In this document: piece by piece, positions 1 through 31,047 of the stretch
Position numbering within the stretch: the first letter of the stretch is position 1
How the letters are laid out: every line of letters begins with the position of its first letter
DNA from: Candidatus Omnitrophota bacterium
Lineage (GTDB): Bacteria; Omnitrophota; Gorgyraeia; Zapsychrales; Aceulaceae
Length of the DNA stretch: 49,496 nt
Assembly (NCBI GenBank): GCA_029564765.1
Contig: JAKQPK010000060.1
Coordinates: 1-49,496 of the forward strand
Reading direction: 5' to 3'
Translations under genes and position numbers: made by a program
Notes under the pieces: model-generated
Database searches by the model: none
Told to the model about the DNA's origin: nothing
Seen by the model: the letters and a program-made list of their open reading frames with translations, nothing else

Positions 1-284
1 CGCCTTTCATCGAACGTGCGCGAGGCCCAGTCCACGGCCGCATCGATAACATCCCGCGTGATCCCGCTGTCCTTCTGCCTGAACTCCTTCGGCTGATAGC
101 AATAAGCACAACGCAGATTGCAGTCCTGCGTCATCAGGAAATAAACCGTGGTGTATTCCTGCTTGCCGTCCGTTATCGAACCGATATCGAACATGCCTTC
201 GGACTTGTACCGTTTGATCACTTCCCGGCACTGTAGCGGCAGATCGCCGCATGCCTTGCTGTTCTTAAGTTCAAATACCGGCAT
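1..284 (-). CDS. Radical SAM enzyme, N-terminal part (cut by window edge)
   Basis: Only the first 94 residues are in the window; the rest lies to the left. Residues 55-62 read CNLRCAYC, the CxxxCxxC motif that binds the [4Fe-4S] cluster of radical SAM enzymes (Cys55, Cys59, Cys62), followed by YQ. The 50 residues ahead of the motif resemble the short lead segment seen in SPASM-type peptide-modifying enzymes, but the SPASM region itself cannot be seen. The ATG at 284 has a GGAGG ribosome site four bases upstream, and the gene overlaps the end of the preceding 135-residue gene by 14 bases, so the two are probably translationally coupled. It is the last visible gene of the prophage tail operon. 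By family knowledge it would cleave S-adenosylmethionine to make a radical; substrate unknown, and a role in modifying the neighbouring Cys-rich protein is inference. Confidence 0.85.
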   Translation of the reverse strand, partial: MPVFELKNSKACGDLPLQCREVIKRYKSEGMFDIGSITDGKQEYTTVYFLMTQDCNLRCAYCYQPKEFRQKDSGITRDVIDAAVDWASRTFDER

Positions 285-678
285 CCGTCCTCCAATCCAG
301 CTTGCTTAAACCCGGTTCGATCTCCTCAATATCCAGCCCGAGTTTGTCCCTGAGAATCTGCCGGTGCGTATCGTTAAGCTCAACAACGTGCGAGACGTAA
401 ATCTTGTCCCTGTGCTTACCGGCCAGAAACAGAACAAACGCCGAAACGTTTCCCTTTTCGCCTTCAACGCCCAGATCCCTGTAAACCTCGCAAAGAACAT
501 CAACCAAAGCCTGAACGCTCATAAACCGTTTGTGCGTAAAACACTGAACAGTCAATTCGTCGAGGTTATTCCTGCACCAGTTCACCAGCTCGCTGACGGC
601 ATTCTCGCCTTCCAGCCGCGCGATCCTGAACGATACTTCCTGTGCTTTTGTCTGATCCTGAAACATTCCCATCACCAT
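271..678 (-). CDS. Unknown 135-residue protein between Cys-rich protein and radical SAM enzyme
   Basis: I do not recognise a family. The protein is soluble and mixed alpha/beta in character, with no signal peptide or membrane segment, and has three cysteines without a metal-binding spacing. Its start overlaps the stop of the Cys-rich gene (ATGGTGA arrangement), and its own stop lies inside the first codons of the radical SAM gene, so the three genes look co-translated. A second ATG two codons in could be the real start. Its place directly ahead of a radical SAM gene would suit a substrate-binding partner or chaperone, but nothing in the sequence proves this. Confidence 0.7.
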   Translation of the reverse strand: MVMGMFQDQTKAQEVSFRIARLEGENAVSELVNWCRNNLDELTVQCFTHKRFMSVQALVDVLCEVYRDLGVEGEKGNVSAFVLFLAGKHRDKIYVSHVVELNDTHRQILRDKLGLDIEEIEPGLSKLDWRTDAGI

Positions 679-1397
679 GAATAAGGGTTACATTTACAAT
701 TCCACGCGCTGTGGTTATGCCCGCCCGAATACTCGCACGTCCCCCAGTTCAATCCGGGCGGTGTATACACACACCAATCCCACGGCACATATCCGTCCCA
801 CGCAACAGGAGGATTTGCCGATTTATATGGATGCTCTGTCGCGGACGGCAGGTTGATACTGGCGCAAATCCAGTAATGATTGATCGAGTGGTGACATTCC
901 GAATATTTATGATCATCACACGCCACGCCCGCGTGCGAACACGTCGTATAGTGATATCCGCAGTCCGCGCAATACTGGCACTGCTCGGTTTCGCAGATGC
1001 AACCGGTCATGAGCGCCTGAACCTTCTGCGTCATCTCCCTGAAATGAACACCCCTGACCTCGGTTGAAAGCGCCGTAATCGTGGGATCCGTGAAATCCAT
1101 GCATCCGGAACTGTCCTGCGGACAATACCCGGATTCACCGCGGCCCGATTTGCAAGCCGCCAATTCCGTGCGTAGTTGATCGACATGCACCTTCCGGATC
1201 TCCGTCACCAAATTCGTGATCGTCGGATCCGTAAAAGACGCCTGCGTAAGCCCGCGCCGGACAAACTCGGTGTTCAGAAACGACCTCAGCTCATCGATAT
1301 GCACCTTGCGCACCTTCGTGGATAAATCCGTAAGTACCGGATCCGTCCAAGCCGGTGTATTTGATGAGCATTGTTTTGGGGGCAACTTATGCGCCAT
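672..1397 (-). CDS. Cysteine-rich triple-repeat phage protein (tail-fibre region)
   Basis: The 241-residue protein has two parts. Residues 17-38, 55-76 and 102-121 are three copies of a repeat with the pattern [FW]TDPxxTxLxTxxRxVHxxxLR. From residue 133 to the end there are 13 cysteines (17 in total) together with many His, Tyr and Trp residues, including pairs such as CIC, QCQYCADC and CKC. No signal peptide or membrane segment is visible. It follows a tail-fibre-like gene and ends by overlapping the 135-residue gene that precedes the radical SAM gene. A GGGAGA ribosome site precedes the ATG at 1397. It may be a virion tail appendage whose tail end binds metal or is cross-linked; that is inference. 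I know no characterised family with this layout. Confidence 0.8.
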   Translation of the reverse strand: MAHKLPPKQCSSNTPAWTDPVLTDLSTKVRKVHIDELRSFLNTEFVRRGLTQASFTDPTITNLVTEIRKVHVDQLRTELAACKSGRGESGYCPQDSSGCMDFTDPTITALSTEVRGVHFREMTQKVQALMTGCICETEQCQYCADCGYHYTTCSHAGVACDDHKYSECHHSINHYWICASINLPSATEHPYKSANPPVAWDGYVPWDWCVYTPPGLNWGTCEYSGGHNHSAWNCKCNPYSW

Positions 1398-1405
1398 ATC
1401 TCTCC

Positions 1406-1897
1406 CTACGAGGCGTAAACCGCCGTCTTATCGAAAAAGCCTTTTGTCCCTGATGCATTCGTTCCGTAATACTTGTTGTTCCCGGGTGAAGCCGCGCCGC
1501 TCTCAAGCTTCGCGGTCGAAACCCCGCCGTCCTTTAACTGCAACTGATCGCCCGCCGATACCTGAAACACTGCCGTATCGATAAGACCATCCAGATATTC
1601 CGGTGTCGTATCGCTGACATCCGCCTTCAATTTATTGGGCGAATTCTCGGTCGGCAGAACACCAGCCGCTGAAGGCACGCTTGCAAGACCCGTCAAAGCC
1701 GTTCCGCTCACCTTGCTGGCTGAGGTGATCTGCGCCAGTTTCGTATCCTCAATCCCCGCGCCCGGAGCCACCTTGTCGTTCGTGATCTGGAGGGCAGGAT
1801 CTGTCAACAGCTCCAGCGCCTCCCAGTTTGCCCGGCACGCCGGAGGGAAATTGATCAACAGCATGTCGTTTTCCGGTTTAGTCTTGTCCCAAGCCAT
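1406..1897 (-). CDS. Probable tail fibre / tail-tip accessory protein
   Basis: 163 residues, low complexity in the middle and rich in Ala, Gly, Ser and Thr, with phrases such as TAKLESGAASPGN typical of phage tail-fibre shafts and trimerising tips. No catalytic motif. A longer frame begins at 1930, but the ATG at 1897 (MAWDKTKPEND) has an AGAGAGGTGG ribosome site just upstream and is preferred; with it the gene overlaps the preceding gene by 20 bases. It lies two genes downstream of the tail-tip gene J, the usual place for fibre genes. Function rests on composition and position only. Confidence 0.65.
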   Translation of the reverse strand: MAWDKTKPENDMLLINFPPACRANWEALELLTDPALQITNDKVAPGAGIEDTKLAQITSASKVSGTALTGLASVPSAAGVLPTENSPNKLKADVSDTTPEYLDGLIDTAVFQVSAGDQLQLKDGGVSTAKLESGAASPGNNKYYGTNASGTKGFFDKTAVYAS

Positions 1898-2153
1898 CGC
1901 CCACCTCTCTTTTCTGGTACGCCTCGGCAACCTCGTTCATGTCGTGAAGCTCGATCCCATGCTCGCGTAACATCTGGACCCAGCAGACATCATGAAGCGT
2001 CATCTGCCGGGCATAGTTCTCCGCCTGCTCGGCACAGGTGAAAACAATCGGCTTCCTTTTCGGCATACGCAAAATAATGTCACCCTTGACCGCCACATAC
2101 GCCATGTCATCCGGTATCTCTTTTTTGCATTTATTACAGATCAACTTGTCCAT
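1878..2153 (-). CDS. Small phage protein with N-terminal zinc-knuckle-like CxxC
   Basis: 91 residues. The N-terminus has CNKC at residues 6-9, a half zinc-ribbon; further cysteines at about 40 and 57 could complete a site. The remainder is charged and probably helical. The ATG at 2153 has an AAGGAG ribosome site. It overlaps the upstream 76-residue gene by 20 bases and lies between J and the fibre-like gene, so it belongs to the late operon. No family recognised. Confidence 0.7.
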   Translation of the reverse strand: MDKLICNKCKKEIPDDMAYVAVKGDIILRMPKRKPIVFTCAEQAENYARQMTLHDVCWVQMLREHGIELHDMNEVAEAYQKREVGDGLGQD

Positions 2154-2364
2154 CGCTTACTCCTTCCGACTGATTGGCATGCTTAATGAATTTCTGCAAC
2201 AAACCGTTCAGGGTCGATTTATTGAATACCGCATCCTTGATCCCGATACTTTTTATCCGGCTGATCTCGCCGCCGTCATTGACCTTGTATAAAATGACGC
2301 CGTTCAAGAACTCGCCTTTCTCAAACTCAATAACCACCTTGTGTGGAATCAATCCCTTTGCCAT
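2134..2364 (-). CDS. Small late-operon protein, unknown
   Basis: 76 residues, basic and beta-rich at the start, no cysteines or membrane segment. A strong AGGAGGAGAG ribosome site precedes the ATG at 2364. It lies eight bases after the stop of the tail-tip gene J and overlaps the next gene by 20 bases, so it is part of the tail operon. I do not recognise it; a small fibre or assembly factor is possible. Confidence 0.7.
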   Translation of the reverse strand: MAKGLIPHKVVIEFEKGEFLNGVILYKVNDGGEISRIKSIGIKDAVFNKSTLNGLLQKFIKHANQSEGVSDGQVDL

Positions 2365-2372
2365 CTCTCCTC

Positions 2373-5300
2373 CTAAATCCCGTGGCTGTGCCAGTCGAAC
2401 ATGCCGGTCTGCGCTACGCCCTGGGCGTCGTACAGCTTCACCGTAAAACCGGTGATGCTTTTATCCGAAAATTGTGAATAGATGCCGCTTCCGCTTCGTA
2501 TCTCGATATGAACGCTTGGCTCCTCGTGGTATGTCTTGCCGAAGAAAACCTGCTTGCCGTCGACTGCCGAAACAACAGTAGCGTTGCCGTAGTCATCGAC
2601 ATCCGGCAGGTCACCAAAATACTGAAACGTCGAACAGGTGATCTCATCGCCGATATTCTCTCGGTACAGCGTGAGTTCGATCTGAAAGTACCGGCAGTAA
2701 TAATCACCGGGCTGATAATCTTCCCAATCTTTCCAGGTGATGTTGTCCTCTGAAATGCGTATCCGGAAACTGGCTGACCTCAACGTTTCCTGACCTGTGA
2801 ACCGATATGATGGGCTGTCGTTAAACTTCGTTACCCCATCGCTGTCAAACCTCCTGCCCAAAGATGTCGAAACGATCACGTCGATGCCGATATAAACGCT
2901 CGCCACATACCCGAAATCCCTGATCGGCGTCGTATACGTCCCGGACATAACACCGTCCGTGATCACGATCGACTCGCCTTCCTTTTCGATACTGTTCTTC
3001 ACGCCTTCCCAGAGCGGTTGTTCCTGATACTCTGCGATGATATTTCTGAAAGGAATCTCGGTGATCGTGACAACCGCCTCTTTTGCATTCACAGAATAAT
3101 TACCCGAGGTATCGATCCCTTTGATCCAGTACCGCTGGCCGATACCGCGTTTGACATCTTTGGTGAGATAATGCGTTCCCTGCTGAAGCGTAATAAATTC
3201 AGCGCTCTCCCAGTCAAGGCCGCGCCGGATCTCATATCCCCAAACATCCACGTCCGGGATCGGCGTCCATCCGAAATACAGCATGTCCCTGTTCCGGTTA
3301 ACCAGAAACGACGGCACATCAGATGGCGGTGCAGATTTGCCCACAATCGTGATCGTGCTTTCGGGCGCGCTTCCGAGGGCGCTTTCTTCATTAAGGGAAT
3401 CAAGCGACGTTACCCTGACCTTATAGGTGTGGTGATCGACGATATCGCCAATGATCCGGAAATTCGTCCCCGAAGTTTCTCCCCGCGCGCGCCAGCTTAA
3501 ACCGTCATCATCGCTGATATAAATTTTCGCCTTGGCGTATGACTTGACGAAATGATCCACATAGGCCGGGTGGTCGAACCAGACATCAATCGCGTTCTCG
3601 ATCGTTCCGTCTGTCTTCTTGACCAGCGATTCGGTCAAGCTGAGATTATTGACTGCCGGTATCTCGCTCGATAAAGACGAATAGTTATTCTGCGGAAGGA
3701 TAATGTCCGAATCGTCATACACCGCTTCGTTGTATTCCAGCGCGGATATCTGAACCTCGCTTTTGCCTTCCCGCTGGATCGCCACCACCCTGAAATCTTT
3801 TTTGACCTTGTTCGTCTCGCCTATCGCAAAAACATCGAAGGCCTGAGGGTCTTCCGGGAACGCTTCACACGAAACCTCCGTATGCGTACCGGTCGGCGAA
3901 GTGATAAGCCGCTCCTCGAGCGTATCGTCCGAGAATCGAACCTGAATCTTGTAAGACTTTCCGTCCTCAATGACCATTGCCCTGTCTAATTTGACAAGCG
4001 CCGCGGTACTGCCATCCTGCACCCGGCCGGAGAACCCCCACTGCGGAACATCGTGCGATATTGAAATGACATCTCCGGCCTGACAGGCGATCGCATCAAT
4101 CCCAGCCTTAAACGTGACCGAACGGTTGATATACCGCGCCACCTTTAACGCATACCTCGCCGCTCGGATCGCGTAACTTGCGCCGGTCGTAAAAAGCCGG
4201 ATCTGACTTTTACGCATCGGCTCACCAGAAGCCAGCGATTCTTCATCGATGTAGGCGACCGTTTCCTGCTGGTAGTTTTTCTCTTTATCGGTAAACTGCA
4301 CCTCGATCACGTTCGGCACCTCTTTCATCGTCTTCCAGCTCTGCGCAAACGTGTCCTTGAGGATATTGCCCATGCCGAACAGCTGGGTCGGATTCGTGAT
4401 CTTGTCGATCTTGAATGCCAAACCGCCCGCGCTGTAAACCGGCATGGCATTGAACGTGGCGCATAATTGGATCAGAACGTCGAGCGCCCTGTTGTTGCTG
4501 TCGATAACCACATCCATCCTGAACCGTTTCTCGTAACCGCCCTGACCGTCCGCAACTTTCTCCTCGCAATACTGCGACATCTCAAGAAGCGAAGCGTTGT
4601 CCAGATTCCCGGATGAAATAAACTCGCCCAGCCCGAAACGGTTGCTGATAATAAAATCCCGCAGGCACCAGACAGGGTTTCCGGAATACCTCTGGGCAAA
4701 CGTCACACCATCCCATGAAAGCAAAGTGTCGTCCGCAAGCAATCGGTAATCTGCCCCATCCCAGTAATAATCATCCCAAGCAACCGGGTCCGTACCGCTT
4801 CTGACATCCGGCACAGAAACCTTCCTGCCTTTAACAACCGATGTGATGTTCGGCATCGATCCTGAAAGCTGATCGGTCGCCAGAAGCTGAAGCCCTAAAA
4901 GCGCGGTATTGGGATAACTCAAATCATCTGTCTTAAGCTCATCGATCTGGAAAAGTAAAAGGTCGCCCTGCTTTAAGGGCTGAAGCGAACTGTCCTCGCT
5001 GGTGCGGGTAATGCGGATGTCGTACTGGCCCGGCGTAAGCCCTGCCTTGCGAAATACACGCCTCACTGAAGAACGCGACTGCGCCGAAATAGTTGTCTCA
5101 CCCAGATCGATATATGTCCCCGCGGAATGCTCTTTGTATTCGACGCGATAAGTAACGCTCCAGCTCTGGATATCACCGGAACTGGAATTCTGCTGATAAA
5201 GGCCGTTATTGAGCCGCAAGTGGATCTCGAAAGCTTCCACATCCAGATCGACCGTGGTGTAAATATAGGGATTGTTTTGCGTAAGGTTGGCGCTGACCGG

Positions 5301-5990
5301 ATAAATATTGTGCAGATCCTCGAAATTCGGGATCATGCTCTGGTAGTTCGTGCCAAAACGCCTGGTGATGGTTACGCCTTCAAAATTGACGATCGGATTA
5401 TTATTCAGCTCGATATCTTCTATCGACTCGATCTCGCCCTCGCAGATCGCCAGAAGCACATTCAAATAATGCTTGTCGCCGTCCTCCCAGAGGAACTGGT
5501 TGATGATATTCCCGCCGACTCGATGCTCTCCGTAAACCACTGCCACCGGAACCCCGACCTCCTGAATCGTTTGCACTCCATCCCATCCGTAGGTAGGCGA
5601 TCCCTCGTCCATCCCGGCAGAACCGAGATTGAAATCCGGCATTTTCGGCTGGTTCATGTACTGGTAAATGGCGTAACCCATCGAAAGAACAAAGAACGTG
5701 AACAGAAACGGATGCGCTACCGCAGCCGCCCAGACCGCTGAAACAATAAACGAAATAACAGCCACCACCGGAGCCTTGACTTCCGGGGCAACAACGATCT
5801 CGTCGCCCTCTTCGATACGTGAATCAAGGTCTTCAATGCGTTTGCCGGTAACGATCACGCGTTTGTCTTTATAATCAAACCCGGAATTATCGAGATAATC
5901 GCGCACGGATTTGCTTCTGGAATAGGTAAATTCCAGAACCTGCGCCTCCTCGAGCTTGAACGGATTGTCGATATGACGAACGGATATCAT
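2373..5990 (-). CDS. J: Tail tip / host-specificity protein, J-like, with gpI-like N-terminus
   Basis: About 1205 residues, close to lambda gpJ. The stretch GWDGVQTIQEVGVPVAVVYGEHRVGG and the following segment match the conserved core of the tail-tip family (shown here only as landmarks around residues 130-160). The middle carries the tip barrel domains, and fibronectin type III-like segments follow near residues 800-1000. The first 70 residues resemble a small beta-grasp domain ending in EEGDEIVV, and residues 73-110 are hydrophobic, which recalls lambda gpI; no separate I gene exists. The ATG at 5990 overlaps the TGA of the K gene as ATGA, so I prefer it to an ATG 39 bases upstream. The protein would form the central tip that contacts the host surface. 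Its C-terminal end likely decides receptor specificity. Confidence 0.9.
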   Translation of the reverse strand: MISVRHIDNPFKLEEAQVLEFTYSRSKSVRDYLDNSGFDYKDKRVIVTGKRIEDLDSRIEEGDEIVVAPEVKAPVVAVISFIVSAVWAAAVAHPFLFTFFVLSMGYAIYQYMNQPKMPDFNLGSAGMDEGSPTYGWDGVQTIQEVGVPVAVVYGEHRVGGNIINQFLWEDGDKHYLNVLLAICEGEIESIEDIELNNNPIVNFEGVTITRRFGTNYQSMIPNFEDLHNIYPVSANLTQNNPYIYTTVDLDVEAFEIHLRLNNGLYQQNSSSGDIQSWSVTYRVEYKEHSAGTYIDLGETTISAQSRSSVRRVFRKAGLTPGQYDIRITRTSEDSSLQPLKQGDLLLFQIDELKTDDLSYPNTALLGLQLLATDQLSGSMPNITSVVKGRKVSVPDVRSGTDPVAWDDYYWDGADYRLLADDTLLSWDGVTFAQRYSGNPVWCLRDFIISNRFGLGEFISSGNLDNASLLEMSQYCEEKVADGQGGYEKRFRMDVVIDSNNRALDVLIQLCATFNAMPVYSAGGLAFKIDKITNPTQLFGMGNILKDTFAQSWKTMKEVPNVIEVQFTDKEKNYQQETVAYIDEESLASGEPMRKSQIRLFTTGASYAIRAARYALKVARYINRSVTFKAGIDAIACQAGDVISISHDVPQWGFSGRVQDGSTAALVKLDRAMVIEDGKSYKIQVRFSDDTLEERLITSPTGTHTEVSCEAFPEDPQAFDVFAIGETNKVKKDFRVVAIQREGKSEVQISALEYNEAVYDDSDIILPQNNYSSLSSEIPAVNNLSLTESLVKKTDGTIENAIDVWFDHPAYVDHFVKSYAKAKIYISDDDGLSWRARGETSGTNFRIIGDIVDHHTYKVRVTSLDSLNEESALGSAPESTITIVGKSAPPSDVPSFLVNRNRDMLYFGWTPIPDVDVWGYEIRRGLDWESAEFITLQQGTHYLTKDVKRGIGQRYWIKGIDTSGNYSVNAKEAVVTITEIPFRNIIAEYQEQPLWEGVKNSIEKEGESIVITDGVMSGTYTTPIRDFGYVASVYIGIDVIVSTSLGRRFDSDGVTKFNDSPSYRFTGQETLRSASFRIRISEDNITWKDWEDYQPGDYYCRYFQIELTLYRENIGDEITCSTFQYFGDLPDVDDYGNATVVSAVDGKQVFFGKTYHEEPSVHIEIRSGSGIYSQFSDKSITGFTVKLYDAQGVAQTGMFDWHSHGI

Positions 5991-6478
5991 TTTCTTAACC
6001 TGTAAAATCCTTCTGTTTTCTTTTTCCATGAAACATCATCGAGCCGCGACACTACGACCCCCTGACGGCAACAATGGATAAACCGCCTCTTGCCGAGTAC
6101 GATCCCGGCATGATCGGCAATACCTCTCGAATTAACAAACAAGACGCCGTCCAATACCTGCGGCGTTTCAACGCGATCCCAATCGTGGCCGTAATGCTCC
6201 TTGAAATAGTCCTTGCCGCTTAAACCCCACACCTTGCTGTATTCCAGATCCTCGATATCAAAAAGTCTGTAACCCAGATCCGCATAAACAAGTTTGAGAA
6301 ATCCCCAGCAATCAAGGCCTTCCATCGTCCGGCCCCTGTGGCGGTATGGGATCCCGAGATATTTCCCGATGATCGCCTTTTCTACATCACATAAATCCGG
6401 CGCGTCGGTACGGACGGAAACGCCCCGAACCGGTGATAATTCTCCAGCACCTTGCACCGCTGTTTTGTTTTGTTGCAT
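5987..6478 (-). CDS. K: NlpC/P60 cysteine peptidase, tail assembly protein K
   Basis: 163 residues. Cys57 in GLDCWGF and His123 in DHAGIVL, with His135 in FIHCC, fit the catalytic triad of the NlpC/P60 family that cleaves peptidoglycan stem peptides. Lambda gpK carries an extra N-terminal MPN/JAB domain that is missing here. The ATG at 6478 has a strong AGGAGGAGAGG ribosome site but lies 97 bases inside the preceding L gene; no later start in frame would keep the conserved segment before Cys57, so the long overlap appears real. The stop overlaps the J start as ATGA. In the phage it would process the tail tip or help DNA cross the cell wall. Confidence 0.9.
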   Translation of the reverse strand: MQQNKTAVQGAGELSPVRGVSVRTDAPDLCDVEKAIIGKYLGIPYRHRGRTMEGLDCWGFLKLVYADLGYRLFDIEDLEYSKVWGLSGKDYFKEHYGHDWDRVETPQVLDGVLFVNSRGIADHAGIVLGKRRFIHCCRQGVVVSRLDDVSWKKKTEGFYRLRK

Positions 6479-6993
6479 GAAACCTCTCCTCCTGTGTACC
6501 CGCATTCGGCCGACTTAAACTTCCACGCGCAGTAATTACGCGCATATCGACGCGCGGGTAAATCAACGCCCAAGACATCGAACTTCCCGGTTAAGGTAAA
6601 CTCCACGCTCTTCTGGTCTGCGGTATAACTGTCGATATAAAAAACATCGTCCATATGCGCGTCCGGATCCGCCAGCTGGTCGGCCCAGACCATGCGGATC
6701 GTAACCTTCTTGCCTCGAAGATCGAACTGCTCCAGATAAAGCTGAACAAAACGCGACACATTCCCAAGCCGCACTTTGACCTGATCGATCTGCCCCTGAT
6801 TGTTCTCGCCGATAAACTCATGCGTCACCGGAAACTTTGAATACACCAGCCCCTGATACGTCACATCCTGGTCGAACCCCGCGATCCTCAAATCATTAAG
6901 AGAATCGTACTTTTCAAGGACATACAAAAAGATGGGTGCATTTTCCTGCTTCGATTTCTCGCTGATAAATAAGGGGCTGACATCTCTGGGCAT
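6382..6993 (-). CDS. L: Minor tail protein L with Fe-S cysteine pattern
   Basis: 203 residues, lambda gpL family. The C-terminal domain has Cys155, Cys164, Cys173 and Cys180 (C-x8-C-x8-C-x6-C) around SAECGYTGG, and then HRFGAFPSVP, the conserved end of the family. Lambda gpL and relatives are known to bind an iron-sulfur cluster through such cysteines. The ATG shares its A with the TAA of the M gene (TAATG). The last 97 bases also encode the start of K in another frame. It would sit in the tail tip hub next to J. Confidence 0.9.
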   Translation of the reverse strand: MPRDVSPLFISEKSKQENAPIFLYVLEKYDSLNDLRIAGFDQDVTYQGLVYSKFPVTHEFIGENNQGQIDQVKVRLGNVSRFVQLYLEQFDLRGKKVTIRMVWADQLADPDAHMDDVFYIDSYTADQKSVEFTLTGKFDVLGVDLPARRYARNYCAWKFKSAECGYTGGEVSCNKTKQRCKVLENYHRFGAFPSVPTRRIYVM

Positions 6994-14956: not shown

Positions 14957-16573
14957 TCAATTTCGATCGGCATCGACATCCGGCTTTTTGCCCCCACGAG
15001 AATCCTCCTCGCCTTCTTCACCGGTGTTTTTCTGCTTTTCTTTTGTTTTGTTTTCATCCTGAACCTCAAGTCCGAGTTTCCGCATCTTCTCCTGCTCGCG
15101 CTTGCGCTGTTCGAAACACTCTTCCCAATCCTTGCCATCCTGCGCGTAAAGATCGGAATACGTCACGATCCCGTTTCTTAATCCGACCTCCGCGGCCTGC
15201 GCTTCTTTAAGCGGATCCACCCATTCCCAGCCCGGCGCGATCCATGAAGCCCCAGTCCAGCGCTGTCTTTTCTCGTAAAATGTATCCGCAGATATTTCGC
15301 CGTTTAAGTACGCCTCTTCCAGCAACATGTCCCAGACCGGCTGGCAGAATTTCTGCGCCAACCATTCCTGACGCATCCGGAAATAACGACGCGCTTCAAG
15401 CAGCGCCGCCCGCGCGCTTGAGTAATTCGTTTTCGAAAAGTCCTTGGCCACGAGTTCATACGGAAGGCCAAGCGCCGCAGAGATGGCTTTCAAAATGCGG
15501 TCAACGAACGGTTCGAAACTCGATCCCGGCCGCTGGGGATTAAACGACGTGATGCTCTCTCCCGGCATCAAATGCTTGATCATGCCCGGCTCAAGACTTT
15601 CAATAAACTGACCCGATGGATTTCTTTCGTAAGCACCGCCCGCCGAAACGTCCATGGACGCTTCCGAAGTTACAAAAAGCGAGAAACACGCGGCAATCCT
15701 CGCGGCCACGAGTTCGGCTTCCGCGTATTCCCCGAGATCCTTGAAATAAGATAAAACCGGCGCAAAGAACGGCACCCCGCGCGTCTGTCCCGAACGTAAA
15801 ACGTAGTAGAGGTGAAAGACATTGCGCCTGCCGTATTCATTGAACGCCGGAATCTCTATAAATTCTTTATCACCGCTTTTAGCGATTCGCGATTCGCCGG
15901 GATGCGTCTTCTGAATGAAATACGAAACCGCCTCACCCTTTTCGCCTATGCGAACGCCCGCGCGGATCGACTTGTCTGCCCGCTTATCTGAAGGCGTATC
16001 CAGCCGGTCAGATTCGATCACCTGCAAAGCCGTCCTGTAAGGGCGTGAAGGATCCTCGATCATCATCGGAACGATCAACGCTTCCCCGTTTTCAAGAATC
16101 TGGCGGTCGACAAGCTGCTGGATCTCGTAAAAGTCCATGCGCCTGCCTGCATCCGCATACGGAATCCATCTCTTCCAGACCCGCTCCGCGTCTTTCTGAA
16201 ACTTCGCCGCTTCTTCTTCACCGAGCCCGATCTCATCCCTGTCGATACGCGACTGCGGACGAATGCCCGAACCGACCACATTGACTGTCATGGTCGAGGT
16301 AATGCCGGACGCATGAGCATCGTTGCGGTTTAAATCCCGGCTCCGTTCGCGAATATCTTTCAACTCCGGCAAGAGGTCAGCATCTGCGGATCCGCCACCG
16401 GGCATCCACGATGAACGAAGGCGGTCGCGTGACGCCCCCTTGTAAGAACTGAACGATCTGGTGACCTTTATGGCTTCGCGGTACATCCGACGTTTAAGTC
16501 CCGCACGCGGTGAAAAAAAAGAAACAAGGCCGTCCAGGCCGTTGGATAACTTTTCAGCCAGCGGTGTTTTCAT
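14957..16573 (-). CDS. B: Portal protein, lambda B family
   Basis: 538 residues, matching lambda gpB (533). Landmarks are the N-terminal RSFSSYKGASRDRLRSSW, the segment RSRDLNRNDAHASGI near residue 80, and LPYELVAKDFSKTNYSSAR near residue 395, all typical of lambda-type portals. The C-terminal 60 residues are charged. The ATG overlaps the stop of W (ATGA). Twelve copies would form the ring through which DNA enters and to which the connector binds. Confidence 0.95.
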   Translation of the reverse strand: MKTPLAEKLSNGLDGLVSFFSPRAGLKRRMYREAIKVTRSFSSYKGASRDRLRSSWMPGGGSADADLLPELKDIRERSRDLNRNDAHASGITSTMTVNVVGSGIRPQSRIDRDEIGLGEEEAAKFQKDAERVWKRWIPYADAGRRMDFYEIQQLVDRQILENGEALIVPMMIEDPSRPYRTALQVIESDRLDTPSDKRADKSIRAGVRIGEKGEAVSYFIQKTHPGESRIAKSGDKEFIEIPAFNEYGRRNVFHLYYVLRSGQTRGVPFFAPVLSYFKDLGEYAEAELVAARIAACFSLFVTSEASMDVSAGGAYERNPSGQFIESLEPGMIKHLMPGESITSFNPQRPGSSFEPFVDRILKAISAALGLPYELVAKDFSKTNYSSARAALLEARRYFRMRQEWLAQKFCQPVWDMLLEEAYLNGEISADTFYEKRQRWTGASWIAPGWEWVDPLKEAQAAEVGLRNGIVTYSDLYAQDGKDWEECFEQRKREQEKMRKLGLEVQDENKTKEKQKNTGEEGEEDSRGGKKPDVDADRN

Positions 16574-16971: not shown

Positions 16972-17200
16972 TTGCCTCCACCGATTTAAAATTTTTTCCG
17001 CATTTGACGCACAGGTGGTACCTGATCGGCGGATGGCTCGAATAGCATTTAACGTCTTTACTCCGGCATCTGGGACAGCGGACAGGAATATAACGCACGC
17101 CGTAATCTTCGCTTTCGATTTTCGGACGGCCGGGAGATCTCCCCGCCTCCGATCCGCCGCAAGGCAGCCAGCCTGATCTTTTCTCGATCCACTTTCCCAT
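16958..17200 (-). CDS. Small zinc-ribbon protein between terminase and W
   Basis: 80 residues. The C-terminal half holds CPRC and CVKC separated by 17 residues, a classic zinc-ribbon; the part ahead is rich in Gly, Arg and Pro. The ATG at 17200 overlaps the terminase stop (TGATG); a GTG three codons earlier is the alternative. Lambda has no counterpart at this position. DNA binding is possible, for example in packaging or late transcription, but unproved. Confidence 0.75.
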   Translation of the reverse strand: MGKWIEKRSGWLPCGGSEAGRSPGRPKIESEDYGVRYIPVRCPRCRSKDVKCYSSHPPIRYHLCVKCGKNFKSVEANDEK

Positions 17201-19032
17201 CAAAGCCACGCTCCTCCCGGCTTCCTGATCCAGTTCCTCCGGCTGTGGTCTTCTTTCATTTCCGGCTGGTGCGTCTTCATGTTTTCCATGCGCATATTAA
17301 GCGCCCGGATAATGTCTGCCGCGGACAGGGCATATATCTCGGCATCAAGAAAATGATTCGCCGCCGCTTCTTTTTTCTTCTGCCAGATCTCTTTTGCTTT
17401 ACCTGTTGTGCGGTTCCGTATCAGGACCTTATGCTCGGAAGAAACCTGGGCGAGATATTCGTCAGACGGATCGCGGTACAGGTGCCATTTGCACGGATCT
17501 TTAGATGTGACCAGCCGGTTCATCTTGTCTTTGTACTGGTTTACATTGAGATTCCACAGGACAAGACCTCCCGGGATGACCGCTCCTGTCTTCGAGTTGA
17601 TGTCGATCTTGTTTGCCCGGTAAAAACGGCCTCCCGCGATATCTTCAAGACCTTTAACTGCCTTGCTTTTATCTCCCCAGTAACGGCAGAAGCGGTAAAC
17701 CTCGTCCGTCCTGAAACCCGAATCGACGCATGTCATATAAACGGTAAGCCGCTCTTCCGACCCTTCGCGCCGGTACTCGGTCTTAAACAGGGCCTCAATA
17801 ATGTCCTCCCAGTATTCGACCCGCTCGGCCCGGATAAGCCAGGATTCTTCTCCGTACCCCCAGCCGCGGATCACGTAATAAAAATGGTCTTTCTGAACGT
17901 CAACCCCGGCGGTAAGAACCAGAACGCCCTGCGGAACCGTCCCCGGATCGTAATCACGCGCAAGCGACCTGAGCCTGTCAGCCGTGGTTTCCTCGATCTT
18001 CTCTTCCCAGACTTCAGCCAGCCACGAATTGACAAAGTTCATCAGAAGCTCGATATAATCTTTCGACTTCAGAAATTCGCAGGCGATATCGCTCCAGGTA
18101 AGCCAGGGAGAATAAAGAGAACTGATCCAGAATCCGCGGTTTCTTGAAGGTTCCTTCTTCTCTGAAACCCATTCACCTGCCTGCATCATCTTGTGCTTGT
18201 GGGCATCGCCGATCTTTTCTCCGCAGAACCTGCATTCGTACCACGCAAGCCTCCCGGACTTGATCTTTTCCGGAAGAGATTCTTCTTTCGGCCATTTGAT
18301 TTGGCTGAACACAAAGACCTGCTTGCGCCCGCAATGAGGGCATGGCACATAAAACCTGCGCTGGTCTGATTTCTCGTATTCACGGAAAATATACCCCTCG
18401 CGCGTCGTCGGAGTTGAAACCTTCACCGTCTTCCTATTCCAGAAAGTCTTCTGCCGTTCCTGCGCGAGTTTTATCGGATCCGCCTCCCTTCCCGAGAACC
18501 TCGGATACTTGTCGACCTCATCAAGAAAGAGATATCTGATCGGTCTCGATGCCAGGTCCGCAGGGCTGTTCGATCCCGCGAAATAAAGCACCATCCGGTC
18601 GAAATGATATTCAAGCTTTGTAAGATCATCGCTATTCTCCGGCACATATTTAAGCAGCGCCTGCGACGATTCGATCATCGGCCTGACACGGTTGTGGGAA
18701 ACGCTCTTTGCGTCGTCTGACCTCGGCAGCACAAGAAGCGTCGGCCCGGGATCCTGGTCGATAACAAACCCGAGCATATTGAGCATCGCTTCAGTCTTTC
18801 CGACTTGCGACGCAGCCATGATCGTGATCTCTTCCACGGCCGGATCGGTGAAAGCATCCATCACTCCCTGAAGGTACGGCGTCCTTGAAGTTTTCCACTT
18901 CCCAGGCTCCGCCGAACTCACCGGGTTGAGGTGCCTGAACCTGTCAGACCACTGGCTGACCGTTATTCTCTCCGGCCTCTTCCAGGCTTCCCTCTCCCTG
19001 ACCGTCCATATCCGGGACTTGCTCGATATCAT
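17200..19032 (-). CDS. A: Terminase large subunit, lambda gpA family
   Basis: 610 residues (lambda gpA 641). The start region RPERITVSQWSDRFRHLNP is the gpA family signature; Walker A is AASQVGKTE (residues 73-81), Walker B LFLDEVD (168-174). A Cys4 zinc site (CPHCGRK and CRFCGEK) lies near residues 230-270, and the nuclease domain follows with DVQKDHFYYVIRGWG near residue 365. It cuts concatemers at cos and drives packaging by ATP hydrolysis. AGAGGAA precedes the ATG, which lies 89 bases inside the small subunit gene; no later start keeps the signature. Confidence 0.95.
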   Translation of the reverse strand: MISSKSRIWTVREREAWKRPERITVSQWSDRFRHLNPVSSAEPGKWKTSRTPYLQGVMDAFTDPAVEEITIMAASQVGKTEAMLNMLGFVIDQDPGPTLLVLPRSDDAKSVSHNRVRPMIESSQALLKYVPENSDDLTKLEYHFDRMVLYFAGSNSPADLASRPIRYLFLDEVDKYPRFSGREADPIKLAQERQKTFWNRKTVKVSTPTTREGYIFREYEKSDQRRFYVPCPHCGRKQVFVFSQIKWPKEESLPEKIKSGRLAWYECRFCGEKIGDAHKHKMMQAGEWVSEKKEPSRNRGFWISSLYSPWLTWSDIACEFLKSKDYIELLMNFVNSWLAEVWEEKIEETTADRLRSLARDYDPGTVPQGVLVLTAGVDVQKDHFYYVIRGWGYGEESWLIRAERVEYWEDIIEALFKTEYRREGSEERLTVYMTCVDSGFRTDEVYRFCRYWGDKSKAVKGLEDIAGGRFYRANKIDINSKTGAVIPGGLVLWNLNVNQYKDKMNRLVTSKDPCKWHLYRDPSDEYLAQVSSEHKVLIRNRTTGKAKEIWQKKKEAAANHFLDAEIYALSAADIIRALNMRMENMKTHQPEMKEDHSRRNWIRKPGGAWL

Positions 19033-28906: not shown

Positions 28907-29296
28907 ATGAAAAACAAAGACGCCCGGTCGCTTCCGCCGGACAAACAGGAAGACATCAGAAAGAAAGCGGTTCACGCGGTTTTAAAAGACGGCAAGACCC
29001 GGGCCGAAACCGCGAAGGCTTTCGGCGTGAGCCGCCAGAGGGTTGAACTGTGGGTCAAAGAATACAGGAAAGGCGGAATGACCGCCTTGCGCTCCGGCAA
29101 ACGCGGTCGTCCGGCAGGAGGCGCACTCTCCCCTGCCCAGTCAGCCAAGATCACAGCGATCCTGAAAGACACACCCGGCCCGGTAACAAGGAAAGCCGCT
29201 GCTGAGCTAATTAAACATGAACTGAATATCGAGGTTTCGGTATGGACCGCCGGAAGGTATCTGGCGCGGTGGGGATTAAAGAGGAGGAAAACATGA
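28907..29296 (+). CDS. IS630-like helix-turn-helix protein without transposase domain
   Basis: 129 residues with two helix-turn-helix units in the IS630/Tc1 order: residues 20-55 (TRAETAKAFGVSRQRVELWV), then a GRP linker, and residues 75-120 (AAAELIKHELNIEVSVW then AGRYLARWGLKRR). The DDE catalytic domain is missing, and the frame closes with TGA overlapping the integrase ATG (ATGA). It is thus a free DNA-binding protein coupled to the integrase. It could be the repressor at the 64-bp dyad or a recombination directionality factor. An earlier ATG at 28880 with AGGTG upstream is the alternative start. Confidence 0.8.
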   Translation: MKNKDARSLPPDKQEDIRKKAVHAVLKDGKTRAETAKAFGVSRQRVELWVKEYRKGGMTALRSGKRGRPAGGALSPAQSAKITAILKDTPGPVTRKAAAELIKHELNIEVSVWTAGRYLARWGLKRRKT

Positions 29297-31047
29297 TATT
29301 TGCCACAAAGACAGACAAGAAGAAACGCTGCATCATTTACACAAGATGCTCAACCGATGACCAGGCGCAGGGCGATTACACCACCCTAGACGCCCAGGCC
29401 CATCACTGCAAGAACATGATCGACGCCTTCGGGTACGAAATGGCGGACTTTGGCGAGAAAGGCGTGGTCAACGATGACGGATACTCGGGCAAAGACCTGA
29501 ACCGCCCCGGCATCCAGTCTATCCTTAAAGACATCCAGACCAAGAAGTCCTTTGACGCGATCGTCTTCTTCCGCCTTGACCGCCTCACAAGAAACCCCCG
29601 AGACCTTTACGGCATGATCGACCTGTTCAAAGCCAACGAGATCGACTTCCTTTCTGTCCGCGAGAATCTGGACAGCTCGACCGCCATCGGCCGCGTGGTT
29701 ATCGGGATCATCGGGCTTTTGTCCGCCTTTGAACGAGAGCTGACAGGCGAACGCGTCAAAGCATCCGCCATCGCCAGAGCCAGACAGGGCCGCTGGGTCG
29801 CAGGAAAACCACCGTTCGGATACAAACAGATCCCTGACGGCAATCCCCTGCCGAACGGCCGACAGCCCCACAAGGTCGTCCTTGATGAGAAGATCGCTCC
29901 CTTCATCAAGCGGATCTTTGAACTGGCCGCGGACAACAAGACCCTGACCGATATCGGCCAGGACATGATCAGCAACAATGTCCCGACATCAAAGAACTTC
30001 ATCTGGCGCAAACAGACAGTCGCCAAGATCATCAAGAATCCGTTCTACAAAGGAAAGGTCCACTATTCCGGCGAAACGCACAATGGCGCCCACCAGGCGG
30101 TCGTTGATGAAGAACTCTGGGACCGGGCAAACAAGATCGTCTCCGCAAACCTCCCGGGCCACAGGTTCATGCCTATCTCAAAGGATTACGCCAGCAAGCT
30201 GAAAGGGATCCTGAAATGCGGACACTGCGGAAGCAGTTTTGTCTCCACCCTCGCCCACAGCCACAACGGAAAGACCTTCTATTATTACGAATGCAGCCGG
30301 GGCAGGCAGAGACTCGGATGCGACACCCGAAGGATGTCAGCGACAGGGTTTGACCAAGCGGTCCTCGACTTCTTCTCCCGGGCATCAAAGGATAAAGAGA
30401 TCATTGCCAGCACCATGACAGACGCCGTCAATCACAGCAAGAAGCAGCTCACCGCCTACAACAAAGAGACCAAAGACCTGCAGAAGAAACTGGTCAAAGC
30501 CAAAGAAGCAGCCGAAAGACTTCTGAACCTTGCGATTGATAAGGTGATCACAAAAGGCACGACTTACGCGAAAAAGATGGGTGCGATCGAAACAGAGATC
30601 GCTTCACTGGAAGACAGGATGTCGAAGATTGAGGCTAAACGGAGAATCGCGGACATGTCGGCCAATTCGACCGAGTACCTGCACTCGAACATGCGTTTTG
30701 CGATGGAACGCATGGCAGACAGCCCGCCAGAGGCTCAGATCGCCCTTTTAAAGTCACTGCTCAAGGCGATCGACTTGCACGATGACCATGTGATCATGCG
30801 TTTTTATCTCGGAGATCCCTCTGGGGAGATCTCCTGTCCCATTGAAGCGCATCAAGAGCGAACCCTGCCCGGTTCTCCCGAACAGGGTTCGCCTGTGCGT
30901 CAACAATGGCGGAGAGGTCGGGATTTGAACCCGAGGTCCCGTTACCAGGACAACTGCTTAGCAGGCAGCTGCGTTCGGCCACTCCGCCACCTCTCCAAAC
31001 CTCTAAATAATCAAACCATTCACAGAGCAAGGAGAGAGTTGTGTTAA
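29293..31047 (+). CDS. Large serine recombinase (prophage integrase)
   Basis: 584 residues. Catalytic Ser20 lies in YTRCSTDDQ; FRLDRLTRN and GRVVIGIIGLLSAFERELTGER complete the resolvase domain (to about 145). A recombinase domain, a Cys4 zinc ribbon (CGHCGSSF and YYYECSRGRQRLGC, about 305-340) and a coiled coil (about 375-450) follow. GAGGAGG precedes the ATG at 29293, which overlaps the HTH gene. The natural end is probably near residue 535; the last 45 residues come from antisense tRNA-Ser and the region upstream of that tRNA. It inserts and, with a partner, removes the prophage. Confidence 0.95.
   Translation: MIFATKTDKKKRCIIYTRCSTDDQAQGDYTTLDAQAHHCKNMIDAFGYEMADFGEKGVVNDDGYSGKDLNRPGIQSILKDIQTKKSFDAIVFFRLDRLTRNPRDLYGMIDLFKANEIDFLSVRENLDSSTAIGRVVIGIIGLLSAFERELTGERVKASAIARARQGRWVAGKPPFGYKQIPDGNPLPNGRQPHKVVLDEKIAPFIKRIFELAADNKTLTDIGQDMISNNVPTSKNFIWRKQTVAKIIKNPFYKGKVHYSGETHNGAHQAVVDEELWDRANKIVSANLPGHRFMPISKDYASKLKGILKCGHCGSSFVSTLAHSHNGKTFYYYECSRGRQRLGCDTRRMSATGFDQAVLDFFSRASKDKEIIASTMTDAVNHSKKQLTAYNKETKDLQKKLVKAKEAAERLLNLAIDKVITKGTTYAKKMGAIETEIASLEDRMSKIEAKRRIADMSANSTEYLHSNMRFAMERMADSPPEAQIALLKSLLKAIDLHDDHVIMRFYLGDPSGEISCPIEAHQERTLPGSPEQGSPVRQQWRRGRDLNPRSRYQDNCLAGSCVRPLRHLSKPLNNQTIHRARRELC
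30858..30892. repeat. 10-bp inverted repeat next to tRNA-Ser 3' end
   Basis: GCGAACCCTG and CAGGGTTCGC are perfect arms around 15 bases, extended outward by weaker pairs (GCGCA with TGCGT). It lies inside the integrase frame, 15 bases from the tRNA CCA end. It may terminate the tRNA transcript or belong to the attachment site. Confidence 0.6.
30907..30996 (-). tRNA. tRNA-Ser(GCT), probable prophage attachment site
   Basis: Acceptor stem GGAGAGG/CCTCTCC, discriminator G and encoded CCA (30907-30909), long variable arm typical of serine tRNA, and T-arm GGGTTCAAATCCC. The anticodon loop CTGCTAA gives GCT, reading AGC/AGT. Its 3' end faces the prophage and lies within the integrase frame. Confidence 0.95.

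Follow-up and report, generated by a model that had tools for sequence, protein, structure and literature searches.

Why does the tail operon of a phage end in a cysteine-rich protein with a radical SAM enzyme encoded beside it? The question arises at the left end of a stretch of 49,496 nucleotides from a Candidatus Omnitrophota bacterium (the window), which is contig C64 of a 1.86 Mb genome that is 98% complete. A sequence-only reading had seen here a block of three genes at the fibre end of a lambda-like tail operon, encoding a Cys-rich triple-repeat protein, a 135-residue protein and a radical SAM enzyme, and had proposed that the enzyme modifies the Cys-rich protein. The follow-up analysis leads to an explanation that we consider fairly likely as a whole: dedicated radical SAM enzymes cross-link the Cys-rich tip of an exchangeable tail appendage.

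The prophage and its tail operon

The locus belongs to an intact lambda-like prophage, whose genes were recognized by Pfam (serine recombinase, primase, gpA terminase, lambda-family portal, capsid E, minor tail L, NlpC/P60 and gpJ). The large serine recombinase (29242..31047, plus strand; PF00239, PF07508) marks the integrase end and adjoins a host tadA-like gene, host genes beginning by about 31.2 kb of the window. All other window features described here are on the minus strand. The terminase large subunit (gpA; 17200..19032; PF05876, PF20454) and the lambda-family portal protein (14957..16573; PF05136, 361.7 bits) are accompanied by minor tail protein L (Phage_tail_L; 6382..6993; PF05100), an NlpC/P60 tail assembly protein similar to lambda K (5987..6505; PF00877) and a gpJ-like central tail tip protein of 1218 aa (2373..6029; PF24801 FNIII-A_GpJ, 79.8 bits, and PF13550), the last three standing in this order before the fibre genes, as in a lambda-like tail operon. 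Two small proteins of the tail backbone, of 76 aa (2134..2364) and 91 aa (zinc-finger-like, 1878..2153), were assigned from their ORFs and sibling comparison. Directly upstream of the Cys-rich gene lies a 163-aa protein (1406..1897), termed fibre-like from its position only. Lambda-like phages keep side-fibre genes downstream of gpJ, and the Cys-rich and enzyme genes are found downstream of gpJ as well.

The left edge of the window cuts the radical SAM gene. At this edge exactly 141 bases recur unchanged as the end of contig C9, and the joined contigs give a complete enzyme of 407 aa (RSAM1), followed by further genes on C9. The operon across the join encodes the Cys-rich protein (241 aa), the 135-aa protein, RSAM1, RSAM2 (361 aa) and RSAM3 (387 aa), and all five genes overlap: at 672/678 and 271/284 in the window, by 4 bases between RSAM1 and RSAM2 and by 8 bases between RSAM2 and RSAM3. 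After RSAM3, C9 encodes a 96-aa protein (p96) and a protein with an Lcl_C domain. The three genes seen at the window's edge are therefore real, overlapping members of a lambda-like tail operon, as had been claimed, but the enzymes number three and not one.

A chimeric join was suspected because the first 13 kb of C9 are 85-89% identical to the genome of another family. It is ruled out, since the junction is unbroken and collinear in four independent records (L004, L007, L008 and L029, the complete LiM genome), and since on contig C29 of a same-family genome, G262, the host genes of C9 and of the right side of the window adjoin, about 1.2 kb apart. Both contigs thus flank one insertion, and G262:C29 is likely the empty insertion site of the prophage. 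The likeness of the C9 segment to another family would be accounted for if a mobile element carries those genes. Among the genomes in the collections that bear a name, the closest is Candidatus Velamenicoccus archaeovorus LiM (Omnitrophota), of the same class and another family. Between its prophage and that of the window the DNA identity is about 89%, vs. 64-75% for host genes, which points to horizontal movement of the prophage in recent time, as judged from these identities.

Several observations concern the surroundings of the prophage. Downstream of its lysis region, C9 carries TetR, TolC, HlyD and RND efflux genes (L003:5594-12000, continued on L134 to about 1223). Despite the hosts being of different families, these genes share 85-89% identity with LiM. 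They were not observed at the G262 site and have the appearance of cargo carried by the mobile element. Between TetR and TolC there is a small transposase gene (L003:6323-6754) which looks IS200-like, LiM having no such sequence there. In genome G038 a prophage remnant (L127:5990-9025) has a serine recombinase gene abutting an RSAM3 gene cut at about residue 99, with p96, Lcl_C and host genes following; in a second genome, G387, the contig ends at RSAM3 residue 105.

The Cys-rich protein and its three enzymes

The Cys-rich protein (672..1397; ORF, conservation and dN/dS) contains 17 Cys and is the proposed substrate. Its N-terminal module (aa 1-130; 1008..1397), delimited by hhalign, comprises three copies of the repeat TDPxxT...R..H..ELR at about aa 17-38, 55-76 and 102-121. 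The C-terminal domain (aa 131-241; 675..1007), delimited by invariant positions and proposed as the cross-linking site, carries the motifs CICExEQCxYCxDCG ... WNCKCNP. As 13 of the 17 Cys lie in aa 133-241, the description as a Cys-rich triple-repeat protein is right about the three repeats and the richness in Cys, but the repeats form the N-terminal half and not the Cys-rich part. Across 18 homologues (53-98% identity) 12 of the 17 Cys are invariant. In the C-terminal domain the invariant positions number 32 of 111, among them ten Cys, E136, E138 and D145; W206, W218, W232, N237 and K235 are invariant, too. The gene has a dN/dS of 0.04 relative to the LiM prophage, and the four core genes, that is the Cys-rich gene and RSAM1-3, range from 0.03 to 0.05. 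Such strong purifying selection shows that they are not chance ORFs. No convincing match to the protein was found in Pfam, NCBIfam, PHROG or PDB, and no relative in the annotated phage collection. Its AlphaFold2 (AF2) model has a pLDDT of 47, with low-confidence helices at each repeat and values mostly below 50 in the C-terminal domain. The 135-aa protein between the Cys-rich gene and RSAM1 (271..678) gave no Pfam, NCBIfam or PHROG family.

RSAM1 (5′ part at 3..284, completed on C9 at L003:2-1081), RSAM2 (L003:1078-2163) and RSAM3 (L003:2156-3319) all belong to the radical SAM superfamily, with PF04055 scores of 33.6, 33.7 and 62.5 bits, respectively, vs. a cut-off of 29.5, and with the CX3CX2C motifs CNLRCAYC, CNANCSFC and CNMNCDYC. 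The Cys of a SPASM domain, sought past the left edge, are present in all three; six of them (C252, C270, C309, C315, C318 and C337 in RSAM3 numbering) are invariant in 22 phage enzymes. RSAM1 matches TIGR04085 (31.6 bits vs. a cut-off of 27) and RSAM3 the Pfam SPASM profile (24.4 vs. 21.5), while RSAM2 gave no Pfam SPASM match and has the SPASM Cys only. The enzymes match PHROG 1802.

The nearest families turned out to be peptide or protein maturases, in line with the proposal of the sequence-only reading. For all three enzymes the best NCBIfam profile is that of the PapB ranthipeptide maturase (NF047865; 107.8, 101.2 and 166.1 bits vs. a cut-off of 340). The CXXX-repeat maturase profile (TIGR04115) gives 75.5, 33.4 and 95 bits vs. 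350, and the profile of the SCIFF maturase CteB (TIGR03974) gives 107.8 bits vs. 425 for RSAM3. The enzymes fall far below the curated cut-off of every known maturase family, so the bond type is not assignable by family. The AF2 model of RSAM3 (pLDDT 89.8) has CteB as its best PDB fold (E 3e-21, TM 0.75), with anSME, ChlB and SkfB next, and a sequence search of PDB agrees with this (5wgg, CteB, E 3e-26). CteB is a peptide maturase that forms thioethers. Among known families outside peptide chemistry, QueE, viperin and MoaA were rejected, being weaker than the maturase profiles and fold.

Co-inheritance and exchange of the cassette

The Cys-rich gene was found on 20 viral contigs and three genome contigs. 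In every locus with enough downstream DNA a radical SAM gene comes next, directly or after the 135-aa gene, over a range from 98% to 49% identity, and wherever a contig reaches far enough all three enzyme genes follow in the same order. Two contigs are myovirus-like. L018 and L027 have contractile-tail baseplate genes (for L018, PHROG baseplate matches) and no siphovirus backbone at all; L018 encodes the Cys-rich protein (52%) and all three enzymes, and L027 the Cys-rich protein (49%) and RSAM1 up to the contig end. Both are devoid of the 135-aa gene, which is hence accessory and outside the core cassette. The expectation that the three-gene block would recur elsewhere is accordingly borne out for the Cys-rich and radical SAM genes, and not for the 135-aa gene. 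RSAM1, RSAM2 and RSAM3 form one clade each, with a closely similar branching order: in the RSAM2 and RSAM3 trees L018 splits first, then L013/L016, L010 and window/L004, and the RSAM1 tree is much the same. In a metagenome-assembled genome labelled Ruminococcaceae UBA1447, a frameshift splits RSAM1 (L030:11111-12339); the label probably reflects a mistake in binning, the phage being one of Omnitrophota.

Sibling phages provide the reciprocal case. Contigs L046-L052 and L072 have the same backbone as the window phage. In the six for which identities were measured (L046-L049, L051 and L072), gpJ is 73-76%, the 163-aa fibre-like protein 78-81%, p96 65-79% and the Lcl_C protein 62-80% identical to the window, and the window-type Cys-rich protein and RSAM1-3 are absent. 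Their slot contains instead another Cys-rich protein (CCECECTCTCTCTC...) and another SPASM enzyme, to which a B12-type radical SAM protein is added on contigs that extend further. On these six contigs the B12-type protein, to the right of the SPASM gene, matches PhpK/MiaB-like profiles, suggesting methylation as a second modification in the swapped cassette. An hhalign comparison of the two Cys-rich types (A5 vs. A6) gives a probability of 93.9 and an E-value of 1.6e-7 over residues of about 5-131 only; the two types have the N-terminal module in common and the Cys-rich end not.

The backbone therefore occurs without the cassette and the cassette without the backbone, which means that the Cys-rich tip and the enzymes form a unit. 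This double dissociation is the strongest evidence for substrate pairing, which is well supported. RSAM1-3 very probably act on the Cys-rich protein; a link drawn at first from position and composition has gained support from exchange as a unit between phage backbones. Conservation, dN/dS and co-exchange lead us to reject chance ORFs and chance neighbours.

Radical SAM genes beside Cys-rich genes also occur in L053-L059, L066, L071, L075, Phass-1 (L105) and L107, loci located via RSAM3 or its distant relatives. Near radical SAM genes of phage loci 28 of 273 ORFs are Cys-dense, vs. 2 of 265 elsewhere, a comparison that is descriptive because similarity of the enzymes guided the choice of loci and close relatives are among them. 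The L058 enzyme scores 499 bits against the CXXX-maturase cut-off of 350, and the L107 target 21.3 bits against the CXXX-target cut-off of 20 (TIGR04114), so that a known NCBIfam pair is also found in a phage setting. No Cys-rich gene was seen near the phage radical SAM genes of L061, L062 and L110; L061 and L062 have several radical SAM-like genes after tail genes. Extreme Cys repeat proteins with 31-43 Cys and units such as CNCNFCP and CNCNYSCT are encoded near radical SAM genes of phage contigs, at L059:5934-6527, L075:5693-6328 and L054:5623-6845. An N.E.TRR motif in the N-terminal module is common to several Cys-rich proteins of the wider set. In Achromobacter phage JWF, a tail-fibre-like protein containing CNCDCNCNCSC (L119:2631-4082), with a Hint-like domain directly after it, is encoded two genes upstream of a radical SAM gene.

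Six cultured jumbo phages, Erwinia and Cronobacter phages among them (SPN3US, EC001, Asesino, CR5, Phobos and Caitlin), carry a similar cassette, in which two proteins of 20-21 Cys are flanked by a virion structural gene on one side and by two radical SAM genes on the other. The Cys-rich genes are unannotated or labelled hypothetical. In Salmonella phage SPN3US (NC_027402) the cassette comprises genes 163-167 (PHROG 1802 and 6085) and resembles that of the window in its composition and in its place beside a virion structural gene and a tail-fibre/baseplate candidate (PMC5694885), but its targets have Cys-Gly-Ser repeats and its enzymes are different. The large adjoining gene is in SPN3US gene 168, whose product is given in two papers as detected in virions and as a tail-fibre/baseplate candidate (PMC5694885, PMC10052503). 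The main text of the SPN3US proteomics papers makes no mention of 165-167, and the papers found contain no description of the radical SAM locus as a system. An unannotated ORF of 130 aa and 21 Cys lies beside the SPN3US radical SAM genes (L106:3094-3486; PHROG 6085), and the neighbouring gene 166 is annotated with a late start.

Chemistry, alternatives and significance

Given its position, the Cys-rich protein is probably a tail appendage carried on the virion. The main products of the enzymes are, on balance, expected to be Cys thioethers. It is a minority possibility that the enzymes subject the substrate to some other peptide chemistry, alone or with thioethers, such as epimerisation, the formation of beta-amino acids or C-C cyclophane links. 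SPASM enzymes are known to perform all these reactions, the presence of three different enzymes for a single substrate hints at several of them, and the targets would be the invariant Trp, Asn, Asp and Lys residues, for instance in WNCKCNP and VPW; W206, W218, W232, N237 and K235 are conserved as this would predict. Against this, the nearest solved fold is that of the thioether enzyme CteB, the best profile of all three enzymes is that of a ranthipeptide maturase, and the invariant Cys outnumber any other residue type. Three enzymes on one target may also make several link types.

It is rather unlikely that the Cys-rich domain is a metal-binding, Fe-S-binding or disulfide-bonded tip while the enzymes act elsewhere, on a host molecule, another tail protein or a nucleotide. 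In its favour, the clusters of C..C and His offer possible metal ligands, there are known phage tips that hold metal, and the prediction gave no independent fold for the C-terminal domain. However, where the enzyme set differs the Cys-rich domain differs with it and the remaining tail genes are retained, so the identity of the Cys-rich protein tracks the enzymes, and the CXC and CXXX repeats of other phages are likewise found paired with enzymes of the radical SAM type.

It appears improbable that the Cys-rich protein is phage cargo, a toxin or signal of the RiPP kind that RSAM1-3 mature and that is released. Pairs of radical SAM and Cys-rich genes are best known from RiPPs, the nearest profiles include those of PapB, SCIFF and CXXX, and phages are known to carry bacteriocin clusters. 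Yet ORF reading and family scans from gpJ to the lysis genes revealed no exporter, leader peptidase or immunity gene, the neighbours being tail, lysis and small phage genes. The target is a protein of 241 aa and not a short leader precursor, its N-terminal module is common to other phage Cys-rich proteins, and the slot lies in the tail region of siphovirus-like prophages, myovirus-like contigs and jumbo phages alike. As for unrelated cargo genes meeting in a variable slot, the fibre end of tail operons is a cargo hotspot, but with order and co-inheritance kept in about 20 loci and two unrelated phage architectures, a dN/dS of 0.03-0.05 and co-exchange, chance is refuted for the association, although not for the chemistry, and is scarcely credible as an explanation.

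Enzymatic cross-linking of a tail tip thus stays the preferred reading, and it can be set beside known systems. The CXXX-repeat system (TIGR04114/TIGR04115) likewise has a Cys-rich target gene near a radical SAM/SPASM enzyme, and its phage-like matches L058 and L107 occupy the same kind of tail-region slot; the window protein, by contrast, has no TIGR04114 match and no CXXX repeat, and there are three enzymes and not one. PapB and CteB (PDB 5WGG), the closest by profile and by structure, act on short precursor peptides, unlike the 241-aa phage protein. QhpD (TIGR03906), to which the window enzymes give profile matches of 55-63 bits, is a radical SAM/SPASM enzyme that forms Cys-to-Asp/Glu thioethers in a structural enzyme subunit (quinohemoprotein amine dehydrogenase). 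The QhpD system, however, is cellular and has one maturase, and the substrates have no sequence relation. Phage-borne RiPP or bacteriocin clusters are exemplified by SPbeta sublancin, a prophage-encoded modified peptide, but clusters of this type make secreted antimicrobials with export genes, whereas the window gene belongs to a tail operon. The class of chemistry and the principle of pairing are known, the latter from small secreted peptides; what appears to be new is a phage tail protein with several maturation enzymes dedicated to it, all exchanged together as one cassette. Searches of an open-access library revealed no report of radical SAM modification of phage tails, a weak absence as most subscription journals lie outside this scope.

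The proposed mechanism is as follows. A temperate lambda-like Omnitrophota phage would encode an appendage in which an N-terminal attachment module, built from three helical repeats, is joined to a Cys-rich domain at the C-terminus. While virions are still unassembled, RSAM1-3 would bind this protein inside the anaerobic host and introduce into its Cys-rich domain a defined set of cross-links, all of them intramolecular, each enzyme acting at separate sites. The links would most likely join Cys as thioethers to backbone or side-chain carbons, of the sactionine or ranthionine type. The product would be a rigid tip, resistant to reduction and proteases, that binds the host surface, and tip and enzymes would be swapped together in the tail-fibre slot, as receptor-binding domains are. 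From the slot and the module exchange we infer a rigid receptor-binding or protective role of the tip.

If this is true, phages probably armour or shape their own tail tips chemically, and the phage radical SAM family PHROG 1802 gains a setting. The number of maturases would vary with the tip type, with three in the window phage, one to several elsewhere and in one case a SPASM enzyme with a B12-type radical SAM protein. The chances are about even that these loci represent a general class of cross-linked tail-tip modules across very different tailed phages, in which an attachment module bears an exchangeable Cys-rich tip with its own radical SAM maturases, and that phages diversify receptor-binding surfaces by enzymatic chemistry besides sequence. 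Cross-linked tips rich in Cys, Gly and Ser, with few Lys and Arg, would be hard for routine tryptic proteomics, which may explain why they were overlooked. Since a version of the cassette is present in phages that are in culture, namely SPN3US and its relatives, one of them an Escherichia phage, the idea is directly testable. A pairing of target and enzymes formerly known from secreted peptides would here be built into virus tails and exchanged as one cassette, and the chemistry by which phages recognize hosts or harden their particles would have a further layer, new to date.
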